From positions 1 to 35,328 of the forward strand of contig PMDS01000014.1 of assembly GCA_003155655.1 (NCBI GenBank): 35,328 bases of DNA, in the 5' to 3' direction. How positions within the stretch are numbered: the first letter of the stretch is position 1; each line of letters opens with the position of its first letter. The DNA comes from Melioribacter sp. GTDB taxonomy: Bacteria > Bacteroidota > Ignavibacteria > Ignavibacteriales > Melioribacteraceae. The notes below the pieces were generated by a model. The model saw nothing but the letters and a program-made list of their open reading frames with translations. It had not been told where the DNA came from and searched no databases. The position numbers and the translations under genes are program-made. This document shows positions 3,833 to 15,441 of this stretch, in pieces.

Positions 3833-3854
3833 AATCAAAGGAATTTGATTTTTT
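3833..3854 (+). terminator. Rho-independent terminator after the HAD gene
   Basis: AATCAAA (3833-3839) and TTTGATT (3844-3850) form a perfect 7-bp stem with a GGAA loop, running into six Ts (3849-3854). It ends two bases before the -35 element of the ilv-leu promoter and so insulates that operon. Confidence 0.7.
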
Positions 3855-3856
3855 AC

Positions 3857-3887
3857 TTGACATACCCGAAATCAAATTCTATCTTTG
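3857..3887 (+). promoter_or_regulatory. Promoter of the ilv-leu operon
   Basis: TTGACA (3857-3862) is followed after 17 bases by TATCTTTG (3880-3887). This satisfies both the general -35/-10 spacing and the Bacteroidota -7 consensus TAnnTTTG, with 20 bases between TTG and TAnnTTTG. The predicted start near 3892-3895 leaves about 10-13 untranslated bases before the leader ORF at 3905. Confidence 0.75.
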
Positions 3888-3904
3888 CCAAAGAATAAAC
3901 AAAT

Positions 3905-4063
3905 ATGAAAAACATAACGCAAAATAATACCCCAATATTTGAAAGCACCCAAATAGGTGTTGGCGGCGTTATGTCTTTTTCGATTATTAATCTTCCTTCA
4001 ATTATTCTACTAGGGATTATTATTCTTAGCCTGCTTGGTATTCTAGTTACCATTCTAGGCTAA
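3905..4063 (+). CDS. Ile/Leu-rich leader peptide of the branched-chain amino-acid operon (putative)
   Basis: This is a 52-codon ORF between the promoter and ilvD. Its last 30 codons (from an internal ATG at 3971) contain 9 Ile codons, all ATT; 8 Leu codons (4 CTA, 3 CTT, 1 CTG, no TTA/TTG); and 1 Val. That makes 18 of 30 residues branched-chain, including runs such as ATT-ATT-CTA-CTA and ATT-ATT-ATT-CTT. CTA appears to be a minor Leu codon in the neighbouring ilvB gene. A BCAA-rich short ORF at the front of a BCAA operon, ending 8 bases before a set of competing hairpins, is the hallmark of a ribosome-mediated attenuator. There is no clear Shine-Dalgarno sequence, which is common in this phylum. 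The alternative is a small single-span membrane protein, since Ile/Leu richness also makes it hydrophobic. Translation may start at 3905 or 3971. Confidence 0.6.
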   Translation: MKNITQNNTPIFESTQIGVGGVMSFSIINLPSIILLGIIILSLLGILVTILG

Positions 4064-4070
4064 AATAAAA

Positions 4071-4154
4071 GGTTAATCCCAAAATCATATCAAAATAAAA
4101 TAAAAGATCAGATTAGGGGTTGACCAAACCCGGAGAATTTCTGAAGGTTTTTTT
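4071..4154 (+). promoter_or_regulatory. ilvD leader: Attenuator-like competing hairpins before ilvD
   Basis: Segments: A, 4071-4080 (GGTTAATCCC); B, 4116-4125 (GGGGTTGACC); C, 4126-4131 (AAACCC); D, 4146-4150 (GGTTT), followed by more Ts so that 4148-4154 are all T. A pairs with B over 10 positions (8 Watson-Crick, 2 G-U). B can instead pair with C (4117-4121 with 4127-4131). C can instead pair with D (5 bp), with an inner AGA/TCT pairing, just before the T run. In addition, GGGATTA inside the leader ORF (4013-4019) is complementary to 4074-4080. The pairings are mutually exclusive, as in amino-acid attenuators. The C-D terminator stem is weak, and the pairing order does not give the textbook outcome in a simple way, so the mechanism is unresolved. 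Confidence 0.45.
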
Positions 4155-4167
4155 GAATGGAAATTTT

Positions 4168-5838
4168 ATGCGCTCTGATTTAATCAAAAAAGGATTTGAA
4201 AAAGCCCCACACAGAAGTTTGCTTAAAGCTACGGGAGTTATCAAAAGCGATGAAGATTTTAACAAGCCATTTATTGGAGTGTGCAATTCCTATATTGATT
4301 TAATTCCCGGACATGTTCATCTTCAAGAATTTGGTAAGGTAGTAAAAGATGCTATCAGGGAAGCCGGCGGCGTACCATTCGAGTTCAATACTATTGGTGT
4401 TGATGATGGAATTGCAATGGGGCACATTGGTATGCGTTATTCGTTAGCCAGCAGAGAGCTAATTGCCGATTGTGTTGAAACTGTTGTTGAAGCCCATAGA
4501 CTTGATGGAATGGTCTGCATACCAAACTGTGATAAAATTGTCCCCGGAATGTTGATGGCAGCAGTGCGTGTTGATATTCCGACAATATTTATTTCCGGCG
4601 GACCTATGAAAGCAGGTAAAACTCCGGAGGGTGAAAAAGTTGATTTAATTTCTGTATTTGAAGGTGTTGGAAAGTTCCAGGCAGGGACAATAGATGCTAA
4701 GCAATTAAAGACATTAGAAGATTTTAGCTGTCCAACGTGCGGCTCATGTTCCGGGATGTTCACGGCAAACTCAATGAACTGTTTGATGGAAGCATTAGGA
4801 TTAGCCCTCCCCGGAAATGGATCAATACTCGCCGTATCACCTAAAAGAAAAGAATTAGCAGTTAAAGCAGCAAAGCAAATATTATATCTTGTTGAAAATG
4901 ACATAAAGCCTAGTAACATTCTTTCCAGAGATTCCTTCATTAATGCTTTTGCTCTTGATATGGCAATGGGTGGAAGCACTAACACAGTTTTACATGCGCT
5001 TGCAATTGCAAATGAAGCCACAATAGGTTTCGATCTCAAAACTTTGAATGAACTTTCAGACCGTGTACCATACATCTGTAAAGTCAGTCCTGCAACTAAA
5101 AATGTTCACATGGAAGATGTTGATAAAGCAGGGGGAATTTCTGCAATACTAAACGAAATTTCAAAAGTGGGCATTCTCAATAAAGACTGTCTGACTGTAA
5201 CTGGTAAAACAATTGGTGAAAATATTTCTGAAGCAAAAATTCTTGACGGCACAGTAATAAGATCAGTTGAAGACCCATATTCAAAAACCGGAGGGCTATC
5301 CATTCTTTATGGAAATTTGGCTCCTGACGGCTCTGTTATCAAAGCAGGCGCTGTTGAAGAAAGTATGAAAGTTTTTTCAGGTCCCGCAATAATATTTGAA
5401 TCGCAAGAAGAAGCGACTGAAAGAATTCTAAAGGGTGACGTGAAAGCAGGTGATGTTGTTGTTATCAGGTTTGAGGGGCCGAAGGGAGGACCAGGAATGC
5501 CCGAAATGCTCTCTCCTACAAGTGCGATTATGGGTCTGGGGCTTGGCGATAAAGTTGCATTAATTACAGACGGAAGATTTTCCGGCGGAACAAGAGGAGC
5601 CTGCATCGGGCATGTTTCTCCTGAAGCTGCCGAAGGCGGACCAATTGCGGCTCTAAGAAATGGCGATATTATAAAGATTGATTTAATTAAGAGAACGTTA
5701 AACGTTGAACTTAGTGATAAGGAAATAGCAAAAAGACTAAGAGCTCTTCCGCAATTCGAACCCAAAATAAAACACGGATACCTTTCGCGTTACACAAGAA
5801 TGGTTTCTTCAGCAAACACTGGTGCGATATTAAAATAA
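4168..5838 (+). CDS. ilvD: Dihydroxy-acid dehydratase
   Basis: IlvD dehydrates 2,3-dihydroxy-isovalerate and 2,3-dihydroxy-3-methylvalerate to the keto acids of valine and isoleucine, using an iron-sulfur cluster and magnesium. Of 556 residues, family signatures include [24 protein letters not shown] and [11 protein letters not shown] (Cys121). Also present are [11 protein letters not shown] (Cys188, 191, 194) and the C-terminal [10 protein letters not shown]; Cys121 and Cys194 are the expected cluster ligands. I start at ATG 4168 because homologues begin MRSDxIKKG. The in-frame TTG at 4120 would add 16 unrelated residues lying over the putative attenuator. It is the first enzyme gene of the operon, 26 bases before ilvB. 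Oxygen-sensitive clusters are usual in the family; no disruption is seen. Confidence 0.96.
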
Positions 5839-5864
5839 TTAATAAAAAGTAGAAAGAGTTGAAA

Positions 5865-7583
<1,719 letters not shown>

Positions 7584-7586
7584 AAT

Positions 7587-8102
7587 ATGAAACACACAAT
7601 TTCTGTTTTAGTAGAAAATCATTTCGGAGCTTTTGACCGGGTTGCCACAATGTTTAGCGGCAAGGGGTTCAACATTAGAAGCATATCAATAGGCGAGACT
7701 GAGATCTCAGAAGTATCGCGCATGACAATTGTAACAGATGGTGATGATCAGATTATAGACCAGGTTGTTAAACAACTGAACAGGCTGATTGACACAATTA
7801 AAGTTGTTGATCTTGCAGAAACTTACCACGTGGAGCGCGAATTAGCATTAATTAATGTCGGCATACACAAAGGTTCTATGGAAGAATTAAAAAATATTTG
7901 TGACATCTTCCGTGGAAACATTGTAGACATTACAAACAAATCAATGATAGTGGAAATTACAGGTCCGCCGGATAAAATTGATGCGGCAGTAAATGTGCTT
8001 GCACCTTTTGGTATAAAGGAAATGGCACGCTCTGGTATTGTTGCCCTTAAAAGAGGCGAGCAAATAAAAATTCAAAAGAAAGAAAACTTAACAAATAATT
8101 GA
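7587..8102 (+). CDS. ilvN: Acetolactate synthase, small (regulatory) subunit
   Basis: At 171 residues this matches the usual length of IlvN/IlvH. An N-terminal ACT domain begins HTISVLVENHFGAFDRVATMFSGKG (abbreviated to its pattern: VLVEN, then GxxxRVxxMFSGKGFNI). The rest is the C-terminal domain, which includes the ELALINV and ARSGIVAL stretches. The subunit activates IlvB and confers feedback inhibition, classically by valine, at ACT dimer interfaces. The start is only 3 bases after the ilvB stop, with a GAGGA-like site in the end of ilvB, so translation is probably coupled. The ilvC gene follows after 9 bases. Confidence 0.95.
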   Translation: MKHTISVLVENHFGAFDRVATMFSGKGFNIRSISIGETEISEVSRMTIVTDGDDQIIDQVVKQLNRLIDTIKVVDLAETYHVERELALINVGIHKGSMEELKNICDIFRGNIVDITNKSMIVEITGPPDKIDAAVNVLAPFGIKEMARSGIVALKRGEQIKIQKKENLTNN

Positions 8103-8111
8103 GGTATAGAA

Positions 8112-9128
8112 ATGAAAGTTTATTATGAAGCAGATGCGAATCTTGAATTACTTGGCACTAAAAAAATTGCAGTTCTTGGTTTTGGAAGTCAGGGACATGC
8201 GCATAGCCTGAATCTTAAAGAAAGCGGGATGAATGTTTGCGTTGGACTGAGAACAACATCCGCCTCCTGGGATAAAGCAAAAAATGCAGGTCTTGAAGTG
8301 AAGACAATTCCCGATGCTGTAAAATGGGCTGATGTAATAATGATTCTTTTACCGGATCAGAATCAAAAAGAAGTTTATGATAAAGAAATTGCACCGAATT
8401 TAAAATCCGGCGATACAATCGCATTTGGCCATGGGTTCAATATCCATTATAAACAAATTGTTCCTCCAAGCAATATTAATGTTATGATGATAGCGCCAAA
8501 AGGTCCCGGACATTTAGTTCGCAGAACGTATCTCGAAGGTTCGGGCGTTCCATGTTTAATAGCCGTTCAGCAAGATCCATCGGGTAAAACAAAAGAGTTA
8601 GCACTTGCATGGGCCAAAGGAATTGGCGGTGCGCGGGCTGGAGTCATTGAAACAAATTTTAAAGATGAAACAGAAACAGATTTATTCGGAGAGCAAGCTG
8701 TTCTTTGCGGCGGTTCGGCAGAATTGATCAAAGCCGGATTTGAAACTTTGGTCGGAGCAGGATATCCACCGGAACTTGCATACTTTGAATGCATGCATGA
8801 AATGAAATTGATCGTCGACCTTTATTATGAAGGAGGGCTTTCAAGAATGAATTATTCTGTGAGCGATACTGCAGAGTATGGCGGAATGACCCGGGGTTCA
8901 AGATTGATTACGGCAGAAACAAAAAAAGAAATGAAGAAAATTCTTACAGAAATTCAAAGCGGGCAGTTTGCAAAAGAGTGGCTTGATGAATATAACTCAG
9001 GTATGCCAAATATGAACAGGTTAAGAAAAGAAAATAAAGAACATATAATAGAAGAAGTAGGCGCAAAGCTTAGAGGAATGATGAGCTGGCTCTTTAAAAA
9101 GAATAAAAAGGAAGAGGTTGGAGTATGA
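8112..9128 (+). CDS. ilvC: Ketol-acid reductoisomerase, class I
   Basis: IlvC rearranges and reduces acetolactate and acetohydroxybutyrate to the dihydroxy acids used by IlvD, with magnesium and NAD(P)H. The 338 residues match the short class I form. The Rossmann loop [13 protein letters not shown] is at residues 23-35. The cofactor-choosing loop GLRTTSASW has Arg47 plus serines, suggesting NADPH. The C-terminal knotted domain carries the acidic metal ligands in [12 protein letters not shown] and [17 protein letters not shown]. The ribosome binding site is GAGG around 8101-8104. The stop overlaps the leuB start by 4 bases (ATGA), indicating coupling. Confidence 0.96.
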
Positions 9129-10222
9129 CTTACAAAGTAGTCCTTCTTCCGGGTGATGGAATTGGCGTTGAAGTGACAAACGCGGCAGTCCGTGTTATTA
9201 AAACTGTTGCCGAGAGTTTCAATGTATCAATGGAATTTAATGAGCAGTTAATAGGCGGAAGTTCTTATGAGAAATATAAAAATCCTCTAACTGATGAAAC
9301 TCTTCAAGCATGTTATGATTCCGATGTTGTTTTTCTTGGCGCTGTTGGCGGGCCTAAATGGGAAACACTTCCTCACAATTTGAAGCCTGAAGCGGCTCTT
9401 TTAAAACTCAGAAAGGCATTGGGACTTTATACAAATATACGTCCTGCTAAAATTTATAACGCATTAATAGATGCATCTACGCTTAAAAAAGAAGTTTTGG
9501 AAGGAACAGATTTTATAGTTCTCCGTGAATTAACCGGTGGAATTTATTTTGGAAATCCGCGCGGGTTTGATAAAGATAGAGGCTGGAACACTATGGAATA
9601 TACCCGTGAAGAAGTTGTGCGCATTGCTCAAATGGCTTTTAAACTTGCACGAATGAGAAGAAAAAAAGTTACCTCTGTTGATAAAGCAAATGTTCTGGAT
9701 GTCTCTCAATTCTGGAGAAATATTGTTCATGAAGTTCATAAAGATTTCCAGGACGTTGAATTAAATGATATGTACGTAGATAATTGCGCTATGCAAATAG
9801 TGCGCAATCCAAAACAGTTTGACGTTTTGCTTACATCTAATCTATTTGGAGATATTTTAAGTGATATAGCGGGAATGATAACAGGCAGCCTGGGCATGCT
9901 TCCATCAGCCAGTATTGGGAACAAATACGCGCTTTATGAGCCGGTTCACGGCAGCGCCCCGGATATTGCCGGACAGGGCAAGGCTAATCCAATTGCTGCA
10001 ATTTCATCAGTTGCAATGATGTTCAATTATTCATTTCAAATGCAAAAAGCCGCTGAAATGATAGAAACAGCAATTGAAAAAGTTTTGGTTCAAGGCTATA
10101 GAACAGCAGATATTATTTCTGACGGATGTAAGCTGGTTTCAACAGAACAAATGGCAGAATGTGTAATAGAGAATTATCATGAAATTTTTAACCAGCAGGC
10201 AATTGGAGTTTTTACTTTATAA
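9125..10222 (+). CDS. leuB: 3-isopropylmalate dehydrogenase
   Basis: LeuB oxidises and decarboxylates 3-isopropylmalate to 4-methyl-2-oxopentanoate using NAD. In this operon it is also expected to act on 3-methylmalate in the citramalate route to 2-oxobutyrate. The 365 residues include the [10 protein letters not shown] opening, the [15 protein letters not shown] substrate loop and the [10 protein letters not shown] signature. Also present are the K-A-N-V catalytic Lys region, the metal-binding [14 protein letters not shown] aspartates, and the NAD-binding [18 protein letters not shown] that marks LeuB over NADP-isocitrate dehydrogenase. The start overlaps ilvC by 4 bases. A hexamer-repeat spacer follows directly after the stop codon. 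Confidence 0.95.
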
Positions 10223-10282
10223 GAACATGAGTAAGATTAAGAATAAGATTATGAGTAAGACTAAGAGCATGAGCAAGAAATA
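10223..10282 (+). repeat. Degenerate hexanucleotide tandem repeat between leuB and leuA
   Basis: Ten consecutive 6-base units, all beginning GA, start at the base after the leuB stop. They are GAACAT, GAGTAA, GATTAA, GAATAA, GATTAT, GAGTAA, GACTAA, GAGCAT, GAGCAA, GAAATA, with consensus near GAGTAA. In one frame the block reads as a basic 18-codon mini-ORF starting ATG 10227 (MSKIKNKIMSKTKSMSKK). I read that as a by-product of the repeat rather than a gene. It occupies most of the 92-base leuB-leuA gap; the leuA ribosome binding site follows it. Confidence 0.7.
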
Positions 10283-10314
10283 ATAATAAAGCAGTTTGAT
10301 AAATAAAAGGTGTT

Positions 10315-11892
10315 ATGATGAATGAACGAATAATAATATTTGACACAACTTTGCGGGATGGAGAACAATCACCCGGTGCATCTTTGAATGTATATGAGAA
10401 ATTGGAAATTGCAAGACAGCTTGCAAAACTAAAAGTAGATGTTATAGAAGCAGGATTTCCGGTTTCTTCTCCGGCACAGTTTGAAGCTGTAAAAAGAATA
10501 GCCGATGAATCTGAAGTTATTATTGCCGGGCTGGCGCGCACAAAAGAGATTGACATTAAATCTGCATATGATTCATTGCGTAATGCAAAACATCCGCGCA
10601 TTCATATATTTCTATGCACGTCGGATATTCATATTCTAGGAAAATTTGCAGATAGTAAATATGGCTTGACTCTTGAAGAAAAGAGAAAAACAATTTTAAA
10701 AATGTCTGTTGACGCTGTTACATATGCAAAGGCACTTGTACCGGATGTGGAATTTTCTGCAGAGGATGCAGGGCGGACAGATATCGGTTATCTCTCTGAA
10801 GTAATTGAAGCGGTAATTGAAGCCGGGGCAAATACTGTTAATATTCCCGATACTACAGGCTATACCTTCCCCACAGAATTTGGAGCTAAAATTGCCGATT
10901 TGAAAAAAAGAGTAAAAAACATAGACAAGGCAATTATCAGCGTTCATTGCCATAACGACCTGGGTCTTGCGGTTGCAAATTCAATTTCTGCAATTCAGAA
11001 TGGCGCACGCCAGATTGAATGTACAATCAATGGAATTGGAGAAAGAGCCGGCAATGCATCTCTTGAAGAAATTGTAATGGCTCTTAAAGTAAGAAATGAT
11101 ATTTGTAACTATTATACAGATATAGACATTACAGAAATTTATAACACAAGCAGGATGGTTTCAGGATTTACCGGAATAATAGTCCAGCCCAACAAAGCAG
11201 TTGTTGGAGAAAATGCTTTTGCACATGAATCCGGGATTCATCAGGATGGAGTTTTAAAAAGTAAGCAGACCTATGAAATAATGACTCCCGAGTCTGTGGG
11301 AGTAAATAAAACCAAAATTGTACTTGGAAGACATTCGGGCAGGCATGGTTTAAAATCGCGCTTAGGTGAGCTTGGCTACCATCCTTCAGAAGAAGAGATG
11401 CAAAAAATTTATGAAGCATTTCTTGTACTTGCAGATAAAAAGAAAGAAATCTTTGATGATGACTTAAGGGTATTAATGGGTGATGAAATTTATAAAGAAG
11501 AAGAGCTTTATGAACTTCAATATTTACATGTAAATGCCGGTACAGATGTAATTCCAACAGCAACAGTAAGAATCAAATCAAATGAAAAAATGCTTCAGGA
11601 ATCTTCTACGGGCGATGGCCCGGTTGATGCAAGTTTTAATGCTATTGAAAGAGCGCTTGAATTAAAATTAGTAGTTGAATCGTATAATGTTAGATCAGTT
11701 ACTTCAGGCAGGCAGGCGCTGGGCGAAGCTATTGTGAGAATTAGAAATGGCGAAAATTCATTTACCGGAAGAGGCACCTCAACAGATATTATAGAAGCAA
11801 GCGCAAAGGCGTTTCTGCAGGCAATAAATCAATACCTGCTTTTTACAAAAGCGAGCATTGAATTTCATCAAGACGAATTGGCAATTAAATAG
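10315..11892 (+). CDS. leuA: 2-isopropylmalate synthase
   Basis: LeuA condenses acetyl-CoA with 2-oxoisovalerate to 2-isopropylmalate, the committed step to leucine. The 525 residues carry the FDTTLRDGEQSPGASLN signature at the N-terminus. The metal-binding HCHNDLG begins at His211, and GIGERAGNASLEE follows. A full C-terminal LeuA dimer/regulatory domain contains the GDGPVDASFNAIERAL and SGRQALGEA stretches, so leucine feedback inhibition is likely. There are tandem ATGs at 10315 and 10318; AAGG at about 10307-10310 suits the second slightly better, changing the product by one residue. This is the leucine-type synthase; the citramalate-type paralogue lies at the end of the operon. Confidence 0.95.
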   Translation: MMNERIIIFDTTLRDGEQSPGASLNVYEKLEIARQLAKLKVDVIEAGFPVSSPAQFEAVKRIADESEVIIAGLARTKEIDIKSAYDSLRNAKHPRIHIFLCTSDIHILGKFADSKYGLTLEEKRKTILKMSVDAVTYAKALVPDVEFSAEDAGRTDIGYLSEVIEAVIEAGANTVNIPDTTGYTFPTEFGAKIADLKKRVKNIDKAIISVHCHNDLGLAVANSISAIQNGARQIECTINGIGERAGNASLEEIVMALKVRNDICNYYTDIDITEIYNTSRMVSGFTGIIVQPNKAVVGENAFAHESGIHQDGVLKSKQTYEIMTPESVGVNKTKIVLGRHSGRHGLKSRLGELGYHPSEEEMQKIYEAFLVLADKKKEIFDDDLRVLMGDEIYKEEELYELQYLHVNAGTDVIPTATVRIKSNEKMLQESSTGDGPVDASFNAIERALELKLVVESYNVRSVTSGRQALGEAIVRIRNGENSFTGRGTSTDIIEASAKAFLQAINQYLLFTKASIEFHQDELAIK

Positions 11893-11907
11893 AATTAAGG
11901 AAAGTTT

Positions 11908-13203
11908 ATGGGAATGACAATCACAGAAAAAATTTTAGCAAAAGCCGCACGGCGGGAAAATGTTAAAGCCGGAGACAATTTATGGATAGATGTTGATGTG
12001 CTAATGACGCACGATGTTTGCGGTCCGCCAACAATTGCTATTTGGAAAAAGGAATTTGGAGAAAAAGCAAAAATTTGGGATAAAGAGAAACTCGTTATTT
12101 TTCCCGATCATTATATCTTTACAAAAAACCCTCACGCCAACAGAAATGTAGATATTCTGCGTCAGTTTGCAAATGACTACGATATAAAAAACTATTATGA
12201 TGTTGGAACTGAAAGATACAAGGGCGTCTGTCATATCGCTCTTGCTGAGGAAGGTTACGACGTACCTGGAACTGTATTATTTGGAACAGATTCCCACACG
12301 TGCACCTCCGGTGCATTCGGAATGTTTGCAACCGGTGTGGGAAATACCGATGCAGCATTTATTCTTGGAACAGGAAAAATTTGGGAAAAAATTCCTGAAT
12401 CAATGAAGTTTACTTTTAACGGTAAGATGCCGAATTACCTAACTGCAAAGGATTTGATTCTTCAAATACTTGGCGATATTGGAACAGACGGCGCAACATA
12501 CCGCGCTATGGAGTTTGACGGTGAGTCAATCTTTTCGTTGTCTATGTTTGAAAGAATGACTTTAACAAACATGGCAATTGAAGCAGGCGGCATGAATGGC
12601 ATAATAGCAGTTGACGAGGCCACAAAAAAATATCTTTCGGAAATAGGAATAACTGATTACAAAATTTTTGAAAGTGACAGCGATGCAAAATATCATTCAA
12701 CATATAAGTATGATGTTTCAAAAATTGAGCCGTTAGTTGCTAAGCCTCACAGCCCCGATAACCGTGATACCGTACGCAATGTACAGGGAACGAAGTTGAC
12801 CAAGTGTTACATTGGATCATGCACAGGCGGGAAAATTACGGATTTTCGTTATGCTGCTGGCCTGCTCTTCGGAAAGCAGGTTAAAGTAACAACTTTTATT
12901 GTTCCTGCAAGTACTGCAATTGCTAAACAATTGGAGGAAGAAACAATTAGCGGTGTTTCATTAAAAGATATTTTTGAAAAATCCGGCTGTATTATTGCGG
13001 AATCATCATGCGCTGCCTGCCTTGGCGGACCGTCAGATACAATTGGCAGAAGTGTTGATGGAGATGTTGTAATTTCAACAACTAACAGAAACTTTCCCGG
13101 CAGAATGGGCAGCAAGAAATCACAGGTATACCTTGCTTCACCATTAACGGTTGCAGCATCTGCAATAACCGGTAAAATTACAGATCCGAGAGAATTTTTA
13201 TAA
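11908..13203 (+). CDS. leuC: 3-isopropylmalate dehydratase, large subunit
   Basis: This aconitase-family iron-sulfur subunit isomerises 2- to 3-isopropylmalate with LeuD, and probably (R)-citramalate to 3-methylmalate. At 431 residues it belongs to the shorter archaeal/HacA-type LeuC class rather than the roughly 465-residue E. coli type. Cluster ligands are Cys305 in GSCTGGK and Cys368 and Cys371 in SSCAACLGG. Other signatures are DHYIFTKNPHA, GTDSHTCTSGAFGMFATGVGNTD and NRNFPGRMG. An AAGGAAAG ribosome binding site is 3-4 bases before the ATG at 11908. The gene lies 15 bases after leuA and 37 before leuD. Confidence 0.94.
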   Translation: MGMTITEKILAKAARRENVKAGDNLWIDVDVLMTHDVCGPPTIAIWKKEFGEKAKIWDKEKLVIFPDHYIFTKNPHANRNVDILRQFANDYDIKNYYDVGTERYKGVCHIALAEEGYDVPGTVLFGTDSHTCTSGAFGMFATGVGNTDAAFILGTGKIWEKIPESMKFTFNGKMPNYLTAKDLILQILGDIGTDGATYRAMEFDGESIFSLSMFERMTLTNMAIEAGGMNGIIAVDEATKKYLSEIGITDYKIFESDSDAKYHSTYKYDVSKIEPLVAKPHSPDNRDTVRNVQGTKLTKCYIGSCTGGKITDFRYAAGLLFGKQVKVTTFIVPASTAIAKQLEEETISGVSLKDIFEKSGCIIAESSCAACLGGPSDTIGRSVDGDVVISTTNRNFPGRMGSKKSQVYLASPLTVAASAITGKITDPREFL

Positions 13204-13240
13204 AAGCTTCTTATTAGAAGTAAAGTTAAAAGGACAGAAA

Positions 13241-13798
13241 ATGGAAAAGAAAATTATCGGAAAAGCTTATGTTCTTGGAGATAACATTGACACTGATCAA
13301 ATTATTCCGGCAGAACATTTAGTATACAGTACAAGCGACCCGGAAGAATTGAAGAAGTATGGACACTTTGCATTATCGAGCGTGCCAATTGAGAAAGCCG
13401 GTCTGCCCGAAGGCGGGAAACCATTTATTCAAGGAGACGATTATCATTCAGAGTACAGCATAGTAATTGGAGGATCAAATTTTGGGTGTGGTTCTTCGCG
13501 CGAACATGCACCGCTGGCACTTCAGGTTGCCGGGGTAAAAGTTGTAATTGCCGAATCGTACGCTCGAATTTTTTACCGCAATTCGGTTGATGGCGGATTT
13601 GTGATCCCATATGAGTGTCAGTCGAAAGTAAATGATAAAATAAGAACCGGTGATGTTATTGAGGTTGATGTTGACAAAAATGAAATAACCAATCATGAAA
13701 ATGGATCTGTATATAAACTAAACCCGCTTGGTGATGTATTTCAAATTGTTGAAGCAGGCGGATTGTTTGAATATGCCCGCACAACGGGAATGATTTAA
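13241..13798 (+). CDS. leuD: 3-isopropylmalate dehydratase, small subunit
   Basis: This swivel-domain partner of LeuC carries part of the substrate pocket. The family signatures DNIDTDQIIPAEHL near the N-terminus and GGSNFGCGSSREHAPLAL in the middle are present, followed by ARIFYRNSVDGGF. The short 185-residue length fits the archaeal/HacB-type small subunit that accompanies the short LeuC. The start has an AAAGGA ribosome binding site. The citramalate synthase gene begins 35 bases downstream, which fits one LeuCD serving both the leucine and the citramalate pathway. Confidence 0.93.
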   Translation: MEKKIIGKAYVLGDNIDTDQIIPAEHLVYSTSDPEELKKYGHFALSSVPIEKAGLPEGGKPFIQGDDYHSEYSIVIGGSNFGCGSSREHAPLALQVAGVKVVIAESYARIFYRNSVDGGFVIPYECQSKVNDKIRTGDVIEVDVDKNEITNHENGSVYKLNPLGDVFQIVEAGGLFEYARTTGMI

Positions 13799-13833
13799 AT
13801 AAAATATTGTGTAAAAGAAATAAAGAGAATGAT

Positions 13834-15441
13834 ATGAAATCAGATTACATCGAACTATTTGACACAACTTTGAGGGACGGAACTCAGGGTGAAGGAGTTA
13901 ATCTTTCAATAATAGATAAACTTGCAATTACACAGAAGCTTGATGAATTTGGAATTGATATCATTGAAGGGGGCTGGCCCGGCAGCAATCCGCGTGATGA
14001 AGAATTTTTTCAAAGTGTTAAAAAACTTCATCTAAAACACGCACAAATTTGTGCATTTGGTTCAACGGCAAGATTTCCGAATAAAATTTCTGAAGACGCA
14101 AATTTAAACGCCATTCTTAAAGCTGAAACGCCTGTTGTTAGTATTTTTGGAAAAACATGGAAATTCCATGCTATTAAGGGTCTTGGACTTACAGAAGATG
14201 AAAACGAGGAACTCATTTATAAATCGGTTCAGTTTCTTAAGGAACATGGCAGAAAAGTTGTGTTTGATGCCGAACATTTTTTTGACGGATTTAAGGATAG
14301 TGAACAGTTTGCATTAAGAATGCTAAAGGCAGCAGAAAGTGCGGGCGCAGACGTAATAACTCTTTGTGATACGAATGGAGGAACTCTTTCAAACGAAGTA
14401 GTATATGCTGTTACAAAAGTTAAGAGTGCAATAAAGAAGCCTATCGGCATACATACACATAACGACGGAGAATTAGCGGTTGCAAATTCTTTGGCGGCAA
14501 TTGAAACCGGGGCGGTACACGTTCAGGGAACAATAAATGGGGTAGGCGAAAGGTGCGGCAATGCAAATTTGGTAAGCGTTATTCCAAATTTAATATTGAA
14601 GATGAATCTAAAAACAAAAAATGAAATCCACCTTGATGAATTGACGTCGCTCTCAAATTTTGCTTTTGAAATAATGAATCTTGTTCCAAATACACGGGCA
14701 GCTTTTGTAGGCAATTCTGCTTTTGCACACAAGGGAGGTATTCACGTAAGCGCAGTGCTAAAAGATAACAGAATGTATGAACATATAGACCCCAATAGAG
14801 TTGGCAATAAACAGCGCGTATTGGTTTCTGATCTTGCGGGACAGAGCAATATTAAATATAAAGCTAAAGAATTTGGTATTGATCTTTCAGTAGACAATGA
14901 TCTGAGCAAAAAATTAGTTTCTCATATTAAATCATTAGAATATGACGGGTACCAGTTTGACGGGGCTGAAGCATCATTTGAGTTGATACTACGTTCAGAA
15001 ACTAATGAATTTTCCCCGTACTTCAAGACGCTGGAGTCTAAAGTACATGTAACATTTGATAATCAAAAGCAGACGACATCTGAAGTAGTACTGAAAATTG
15101 AAGTTGATGGCGAAATTGAACACACTGCCGCCAATGGCGATGGCCCCGTTAATGCGCTTGATAATGCACTTAGAAAAGCCTTGACGCGTTTTTATCCGGA
15201 AATTTCTAAAATAAAATTGATTGACTATAAAGTCCGCGTGCTTAACGAAAAAAATGGAACCGCTGCAAAAGTCCGGGTATTAATTCAATCCAGCGACAGC
15301 ATTGACACGTGGTCAACAGTTGGTGTTTCTGAAAATATAATTGAAGCAAGCTGGCAGGCAATATGCGACAGTGTGAACTACAAGCTTTTCAAAATTGAAA
15401 AAGAAAAATCTTCCATTCTGAATTTAAATATAGCCGAATAA
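13834..15441 (+). CDS. cimA: (R)-citramalate synthase
   Basis: CimA condenses acetyl-CoA with pyruvate to citramalate, giving a threonine-independent path to 2-oxobutyrate and isoleucine. The 535-residue protein has the LeuA fold but the citramalate-type signatures. These are LFDTTLRDGTQGEGVNLS, then IIEGGWPGSNPRDEEFF (LeuA has EAGFP here), a metal-binding HTHNDGELAVANS, and GVGERCGNANL. A C-terminal regulatory domain includes ANGDGPVNALDNALRKAL. ATG 13834 is used because it has AAGAGAA upstream and gives the family N-terminus; an in-frame TTG at 13807 would add nine residues. It closes the ilv-leu operon, and a 201-base gap follows with no convincing terminator. Confidence 0.92.
   Translation: MKSDYIELFDTTLRDGTQGEGVNLSIIDKLAITQKLDEFGIDIIEGGWPGSNPRDEEFFQSVKKLHLKHAQICAFGSTARFPNKISEDANLNAILKAETPVVSIFGKTWKFHAIKGLGLTEDENEELIYKSVQFLKEHGRKVVFDAEHFFDGFKDSEQFALRMLKAAESAGADVITLCDTNGGTLSNEVVYAVTKVKSAIKKPIGIHTHNDGELAVANSLAAIETGAVHVQGTINGVGERCGNANLVSVIPNLILKMNLKTKNEIHLDELTSLSNFAFEIMNLVPNTRAAFVGNSAFAHKGGIHVSAVLKDNRMYEHIDPNRVGNKQRVLVSDLAGQSNIKYKAKEFGIDLSVDNDLSKKLVSHIKSLEYDGYQFDGAEASFELILRSETNEFSPYFKTLESKVHVTFDNQKQTTSEVVLKIEVDGEIEHTAANGDGPVNALDNALRKALTRFYPEISKIKLIDYKVRVLNEKNGTAAKVRVLIQSSDSIDTWSTVGVSENIIEASWQAICDSVNYKLFKIEKEKSSILNLNIAE

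Follow-up and report, generated by a model that had tools for sequence, protein, structure and literature searches.

How might the synthesis of branched-chain amino acids (BCAAs) be controlled in Melioribacter sp., a member of the Ignavibacteriales? The question is raised by the 35,328 nucleotides of contig PMDS01000014.1 analysed here (the window), in which an operon headed by ilvD is preceded by a short ORF ending in a run of Ile, Leu and Val codons and by segments that can pair in mutually exclusive ways. A first-pass annotation of this DNA recognized the parts of a ribosome-mediated attenuator, including a terminator formed by segments C and D and seven Ts, and was puzzled by its logic, since a ribosome at the stop codon would mask segment A and favour the B-C hairpin, the reverse of the textbook outcome. 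The comparison with relatives described below lends good support to BCAA leader-peptide attenuation as a reading of the sequences, and the predicted folds make it fairly probable that the leader is a ribosome-mediated attenuator acting on the initiation of ilvD translation.

The leader and its operon in the window

All features named here lie on the forward strand. A promoter-like site, TTGACA-N17-TATCTTTG (3857-3887, 10/12 matches; TTGACA-N17-TATCTT at 3857-3885), stands just upstream of the short ORF, which agrees with the earlier placement of the leader directly after a promoter. In the 100 nt around the leader start, 24 of 57 relatives carry TAnnTTTG, compared with 2 in a 3' control stretch; we take this motif to be the Bacteroidota-type -7 element. 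The leader ORF itself is present as annotated, with 52 codons at 3905-4063 of which the C-terminal 20 are BCAA-rich, and 9 Ile, 8 Leu and 1 Val make up 18 of its last 30 residues (codons in the ORF: ATT 9, ATA 3, CTA 4, CTT 3, CTG 1, GTT 3). Measured against the 24 window ORFs taken as genes, 18 or more such residues in 30 has a binomial P of 1.7e-5 (background 23.2%), and CTA as 4 of the 8 Leu codons of the tail, compared with 7% in the window ORFs, has P = 0.0017, both stretches having been picked after the fact. The ORF ends 104 nt before ilvD and 7 nt, not 8 bases, before segment A. The structural genes begin with ilvD (4168-5838; dihydroxy-acid dehydratase, Pfam ILVD_EDD_N/C) and continue with ilvB, ilvN, ilvC, leuB, leuA, leuC, leuD and a cimA-like gene (5859-15441, Pfam), nine BCAA genes named by reading Pfam domains together with gene order.

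The leader as a whole (3890-4168, 279 nt) folds with z = -5.71, and none of 200 shuffles is as good. Its 5' half contains a hairpin (3908-3978) in which 3908-3920 and 3966-3978 are 92% complementary (H5-X z = -4.97, where the 60-nt X stretch used includes the 3' arm of this hairpin). Further along the ORF lie segment X (3995-4008), a partner of D, and segment 0 (GGGATTA, 4013-4019), a partner of A. Segment A itself (4071-4083), which can pair with B or with 0, opens a covariance model match (G000:C122:4071-4136, E 2.4e-10, the window sequence being part of the model). It is followed by segment L (AGATCAGA, 4105-4112), which lies 5' of B and in the fold can pair with ilvD coding bases 4174-4181, by B (4113-4125), which pairs with A or folds with C, and by C (4126-4133), the 3' arm of the B-C hairpin, where GGGTT at 4117-4121 facing AACCC at 4127-4131 is one pairing option. 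Segment D (4134-4147) can pair with X or with the ilvD Shine-Dalgarno (SD) region; after it come the seven Ts (4148-4154) and segment E (4155-4170), the ribosome-binding region and start of ilvD with its ATG at 4168-4170, whose bases 4158-4163 read as complementary to D bases 4138-4143. In the window, the A-B duplex reaches -18.5 kcal/mol (0/2000 mononucleotide shuffles as good), the X-D duplex -17.1 kcal/mol (11/2000) and the pairing of ORF positions 3999-4061 with A -12.4 kcal/mol (43/2000). The X-D helix is an addition, as the earlier annotation had overlooked the pairing of 3995-4008 with 4134-4147.

Conservation of the leader peptide

The order contains 61 ilvD loci of the same type that include the start, of which 57 from 33 genera have both a BCAA-rich ORF tail and A/B segments and were used. 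The others are L160 (tail broken, A/B present), L161 and L162 (leader not found) and L168 (a BCAA ORF, no A/B seen). Also excluded from the counts is the second leader copy in L212 (G025:C120), which precedes the start of an ilvD that breaks off within a few codons and which we see as either a decayed duplicate or an assembly mixture.

Across the 33 genera, Ile, Leu and Val together reach 0.95 at codon -2, 0.97 at -3 and 0.46-0.87 from -4 to -12, with 0.62 or more at 10 of the 11 positions between -2 and -12, and only 0.12-0.44 per codon at -22 to -45; the final residue is Gly in 0.75 of genera, and CTA makes up 47% of the Leu codons among the last 22. Relatives keep a tail enriched in codons for the product of the operon while the N-terminal half of the ORF drifts, as in an attenuator, which answers a check proposed with the original annotation. 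The hydrophobic tail might alternatively belong to a working small membrane peptide and sense nothing, a reading we regard as exceedingly improbable, given that the sequence outside the BCAA run drifts and that codon choice (CTA 47% versus 7%) and RNA pairings are kept instead. In the window, a repeat, TTAGCCT..AGGCTAA (4026-4032 and 4057-4063), links mid-run codons to the stop codon; it may slow termination or allow pairing inside the ORF.

Helices kept across the order

Each helix, made of its own arms, was compared with the same helix built from partners of other genera, with one sequence per genus as the only correction for relatedness. The GC-rich L042 was left out of the 32-genus segment tests and of the C-D test because of its composition effect. 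The A-B pairing proposed from the single sequence is borne out most clearly, with z = -8.0 over 33 genera (-7.7 without L042; -10.4 with other cuts, 32 genera), 48 cells changed on both sides compared with 18.2 in shuffles (0/500 as many) and 86.6% of positions paired versus 19-54% when slid. In a best-of-many search, which carries no null, every one of the 57 sequences yields an A-B helix (7-19 pairs) and, at B, a local hairpin. The suggested pairing of GGGATTA with A likewise gains support from the ORF-A test (z = -5.1 over 33 genera; -4.5 without L042), and an alternative ORF cut (X-A) gives only z = -2.0 (32 genera). X-D scores z = -6.85 over 32 genera; it runs to 18 contiguous pairs in L159 and, interrupted by a single 2-nt bulge, to 18 pairs in L021; in L040/L041 and L165 it is built from quite different letters on both sides. 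The proposed B-C hairpin holds when its arms are swapped in free register (z = -4.97) but is not above shuffles in one fixed register. As such, mutually exclusive helices that overlap the ORF or its stop codon are found in A-B, B-C, ORF-A and X-D by directed tests, with negative unguided scans.

Specifically, two unguided all-pairs covariation scans of 47 sequences with tree-aware nulls found no pair at E <=1, the top pair of one scan being an A-B pair (E 1.83). The support for the helices therefore comes from the directed tests, which involve fewer comparisons and correct less for relatedness.

The step from these helices to the ilvD start is more weakly supported by comparison. L-cds, which may cover the first codons, scores z = -3.29 and -3.0 in a repeat (32 genera), and D-E, which may cover the SD, is weak at z = -2.07 (p = 0.024, 32 genera). 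D-E pairings of -5 kcal/mol or better touch the GAGG-like core in 30/57 sequences and 20/33 genera, a count that carries no null. In total, 9 of 36 segment combinations lie at p < 0.05 and 27 do not (32 genera); the former include A-E (z = -3.6), L-E (-2.5) and L-D (-2.0), three signals that our best explanation leaves unaccounted for and that we count against it. Pairing of the ORF with the SD gave no signal over the 32 genera (X-E z = -0.65, T-E z = 0.73). A direct pairing of B with the SD, hinted at by L018, L068 and L012, found no support in the window's order (z = 0.03; B-E z = 0.45).

Termination or translation

The letters of the annotated C-D hairpin and its seven Ts exist, and a 33-nt stretch folds at -5.5 kcal/mol; its reading as an intrinsic terminator was rejected. 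The A-B strand pair covaries strongly and C-D, tested on disjoint segments, does not (z = -0.56); a terminator scan found no terminator-like site, and a run of 6 or more Ts between C and ilvD occurs in 12/57 sequences and 9/33 genera. The 33-nt folds before these 12 runs range from -0.9 to -7.5 kcal/mol, and 9/12 runs are no more than 15 nt away from the start codon. In the order, then, no conserved intrinsic terminator of the trp type precedes the first gene. Transcription attenuation by a terminator ending at the T-run 4148-4154, whether from C-D or from the X-D stem that ends at the same place, is accordingly a reading we hold to be unlikely, with 45/57 sequences lacking a T-run of 6 and with a polarity that comes out wrong, as the A-B helix favoured by a stall leaves C-D free. 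What speaks for it, besides the fold, is that the run of 7 is found in 3/5 sequences of the window's genus, that little effect on the start region is predicted in the window itself and that strong terminator-like hairpins do occur in ilvD leaders of Anaerolineales. In the window's genus, such a terminator could be the sole control or be added to a translational one, and termination at the seven Ts may contribute there.

These hairpins belong to another type of ilvD leader, mostly from Anaerolineales/Chloroflexi, in which by eye a short BCAA-rich ORF is followed immediately by a GC-rich hairpin and a T-run (L098-L104, L106-L114, L118, L120, L122, L132, L133 and L145). The example GAGCCGCCC..GGGCGGCTCTTTTT looks like a classical terminator, unlike the leader of the order.

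Once the terminator is given up, the polarity paradox disappears, because B-C then belongs to the closed state and A-B to the open one; the apparent reversal arose from assuming a terminator. Of the original attenuator reading, the leader-peptide part (kept tail, A-B, B-C, ORF-A) persists and the transcriptional C-D part falls away. Rho could in principle take the place of an intrinsic terminator: in rich medium the ribosome would leave early and Rho would load on the A-to-B linker, which a stalled ribosome and A-B would otherwise shield. The linker is A-rich in the alignment, but this model leaves unexplained the pairings of the SD/start region that beat swapped partners, and we consider it highly improbable.

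A simpler predicted switch in sister families

The translational option, one of several that the annotation had listed, fits best, as the sister families illustrate. An analogous leader is found in 32/38 loci of other families (17 genera; f5, f14, f20), with different letters (A = GCCAGAGG.., B = ..CCTCTGGC); among the 38, no leader was found in L060, L064 and L065 (f10) or in L073 and L074 (f19), and L071 (f25) was dropped as it is without A/B. In these families, B alternates between A and the SD/start codon of ilvD (own versus swapped: A-B z = -5.8, B-TIR z = -3.4), and the remaining ten combinations, which include ORF-A (z = -0.48), do not reach p < 0.05. When the ribosome sits close to the ORF end, the folds contain 15.0 A-B pairs and the start costs 6.3 kcal/mol to open; with a ribosome at the stop codon, they contain 3.5 A-B and 12.6 B-TIR pairs and the cost is 10.8 kcal/mol. 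From stall to stop, the cost rises in 16 and falls in 1 of 17 genera; the change is 3.8 with real, 0.7 with shuffled and 2.2 with swapped 3' ends. By prediction, the sister-family leader would thus be a translational attenuator with textbook polarity. A closing helix over the SD/start of the regulated gene is found across the lineage, on the basis of B-TIR in the sister families (z = -3.4) and, in the window's order, only of D-E (-2.1) and L-cds (-3.3).

Ribosome position and the ilvD start

In the model that we favour, a shortage of charged Ile, Leu or Val tRNA would slow the ribosome within the last ~12 codons and leave A free. A-B would then form, X-D could form, and the ilvD start region would be open (ON). 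If B is instead freed, B-C together with D-E and L-cds would close the start region (OFF). In the sister families, the last step would be simpler, B itself pairing with the SD and start codon. More broadly, we entertain, at slightly less than even confidence, a translational BCAA switch that spans six or more families of the class (f1-f3, f5, f14, f20). In it, A after the stop codon would mimic the ilvD start, both would compete for B, and in the window's order the circuit would have been rewired to a relay whose ORF segments 0 and X switch A and the SD-covering strand.

Folding with the ribosome held at defined positions weakly suggests the textbook direction in the order, at small size. A-B is predicted at 0.76 with a late stall and 0.35 with a ribosome at the stop codon, and the cost of opening the start goes from 6.35 under a late stall to 6.74 with the ribosome at the stop codon and is 6.38 with no ribosome, so that the no-ribosome cost equals that of the late stall. 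Taken by genus, 20 of 33 have a higher cost at the stop codon and 5 a lower one (p = 0.0008). The effect is 0.45 kcal/mol with real 3' ends; shuffled ends give -0.03 (p = 0.008) and swapped ends 0.14 (p = 0.053). With a second ribosome on X, the change is 1.95 with real, -0.39 with shuffled and 0.12 with swapped 3' ends. When only the post-stop region is folded with A masked, the direction is not consistent: the start region goes 23 up and 25 down, and a recognised SD 3 up and 9 down of 21. In the window, the change from stall to stop is +0.4 with no ORF, +0.9 with 60 nt of ORF and +0.4 kcal/mol with 150 nt. A second ribosome on X turns it to -1.1, where the other four members of the genus go up. 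Since the change in the window is small, and negative with a second ribosome on X, the translational model holds better for the relatives than for this single sequence, as far as predicted folds can tell.

When the ribosome sits on the first BCAA codons it hides X, and the start region is then predicted to be closed (7.75 versus 6.35), so that the model depends on late stalling in the run. The distance from the end of X to the leader stop is 40-91 nt, and BCAA codons are densest downstream of X, which by way of argument suits late stalls; early stalls nonetheless remain a difficulty for the model. Alternatively, the helices might work the opposite way round: X-D, 0-A and B-C, formed after passage of the ribosome, would be the OFF state, acting by termination at D or as a block to RNA polymerase, and an early stall on X and 0 would give A-B and D-E as the ON state. 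In the window, the coordinates do place X and 0 inside one ribosome footprint and make X-D, 0-A and B-C nested and compatible, and early stalls, expected in severe starvation, would cover both segments. The whole of this reading, its mode of termination included, nevertheless appears distinctly improbable, as its supposed ON state contains D-E, which covers the SD and makes the start costlier to open, the T-run after D is not conserved, and BCAA density peaks at codons -2 to -12, which in most sequences lie downstream of X.

Distribution of the leader

The leader is old, as 57/61 loci of the order are usable and 32/38 loci of other families have an analogous leader. Covariance model R1, built from the 57, matches 71/164 genomes of the order, most training sequences among them and L042 unmatched. 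The sister model R2, under strict filters, matches 4/296 genomes drawn from the phylum, two of them from its training set and two only weakly (E 0.0016 and 0.009). Nine order loci whose ilvD is 44-47% identical (L043-L051) have no such leader upstream of ilvD. As a separate observation, 88/164 order genomes, and 48/109 of those with completeness of 90% or more and contamination of 5% or less, have no match to the same-type ilvD; they are likely BCAA auxotrophs or use other routes.

Several further arrangements were seen. In genera g53 and g56 (L196, L198, L199, L202, L203, L205, L206), the R1 leader precedes a second short ORF of 45-67 aa that starts MRS and in some cases has an Ile-rich end, followed after about 50-160 nt by an acetolactate-synthase-type gene (Pfam on three of the seven), possibly a two-step leader cascade. 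A leader of the same kind precedes leuB in L213 (G012), an R2 A/B-type match with a weakly BCAA-rich leader ORF precedes a cimA-like gene in L215 (G107), and in L211 (G058:C37, E 2.7e-6) an A/B-like match without a BCAA leader stands, by eye, before a glutamate-synthase-like ORF. In Calditrichota/KSB1 (L089, L090, L095, L097), motifs similar by eye to A/B follow a BCAA-rich ORF and precede an ilvD that is 71-73% identical; the A motif recurs in the SD stretch of L097, GGAGGTCAATC. In Marinimicrobia (L091-L093), a BCAA-rich ORF before ilvD is followed by still other post-stop letters.

Relation to known systems

Rfam gave 0 matches in the window at gathering score and 3 matches at E up to 5 in 3850-4250, all far below gathering. 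Twelve relatives gave 8 matches, of which a SAM riboswitch in L018, on the opposite strand, was the only one to reach that score. No description of such a leader from Ignavibacteria appeared among the top-ranked matches in open-licence PMC text, and to our knowledge amino-acid operon attenuation has been described chiefly in Proteobacteria, Firmicutes and Actinobacteria. If the model is correct, largely uncultured bacteria sense BCAAs by ribosome position and gate translation, not transcription, with leader codons that double as switch RNA. The outcome is a testable model, together with covariance model R1 for the order.

In erm-type translational attenuators, stalling of the leader ribosome exchanges one helix for another and thereby releases the SD, with a drug as inducer. 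The same swap and release are proposed here, with uncharged BCAA tRNA, not a drug, as the expected signal. The classical trp/his/ilv/leu transcription attenuators (modelled in PMC1183508) share the regulatory codons, the choice of exclusive helix by ribosome position and a stall that means ON; unlike them, the present leader has no conserved intrinsic terminator, and its closing helices cover a translation start. The ilvB-II and ilvB-OMG uORF motifs also place a BCAA-rich uORF upstream of a BCAA gene, but there transcription attenuation of ilvB is proposed (PMC10272879), whereas here ilvD would be the regulated gene and translational control is favoured. Among the literature matches examined, the closest in print is the LEU element of actinobacterial leuA, where a Leu run pairs with the SD, with a pseudoknot, and the authors argue against leader-peptide attenuation (PMC1262725). 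Both systems have a run of regulatory codons in a leader ORF, a coding segment that pairs over a long range, a stem containing the SD of the first biosynthetic gene, and alternative folds; they differ in that D is the partner of X here, that A and B are segments of their own beyond the stop codon, and that genes and phylum are others (PMC1262725).
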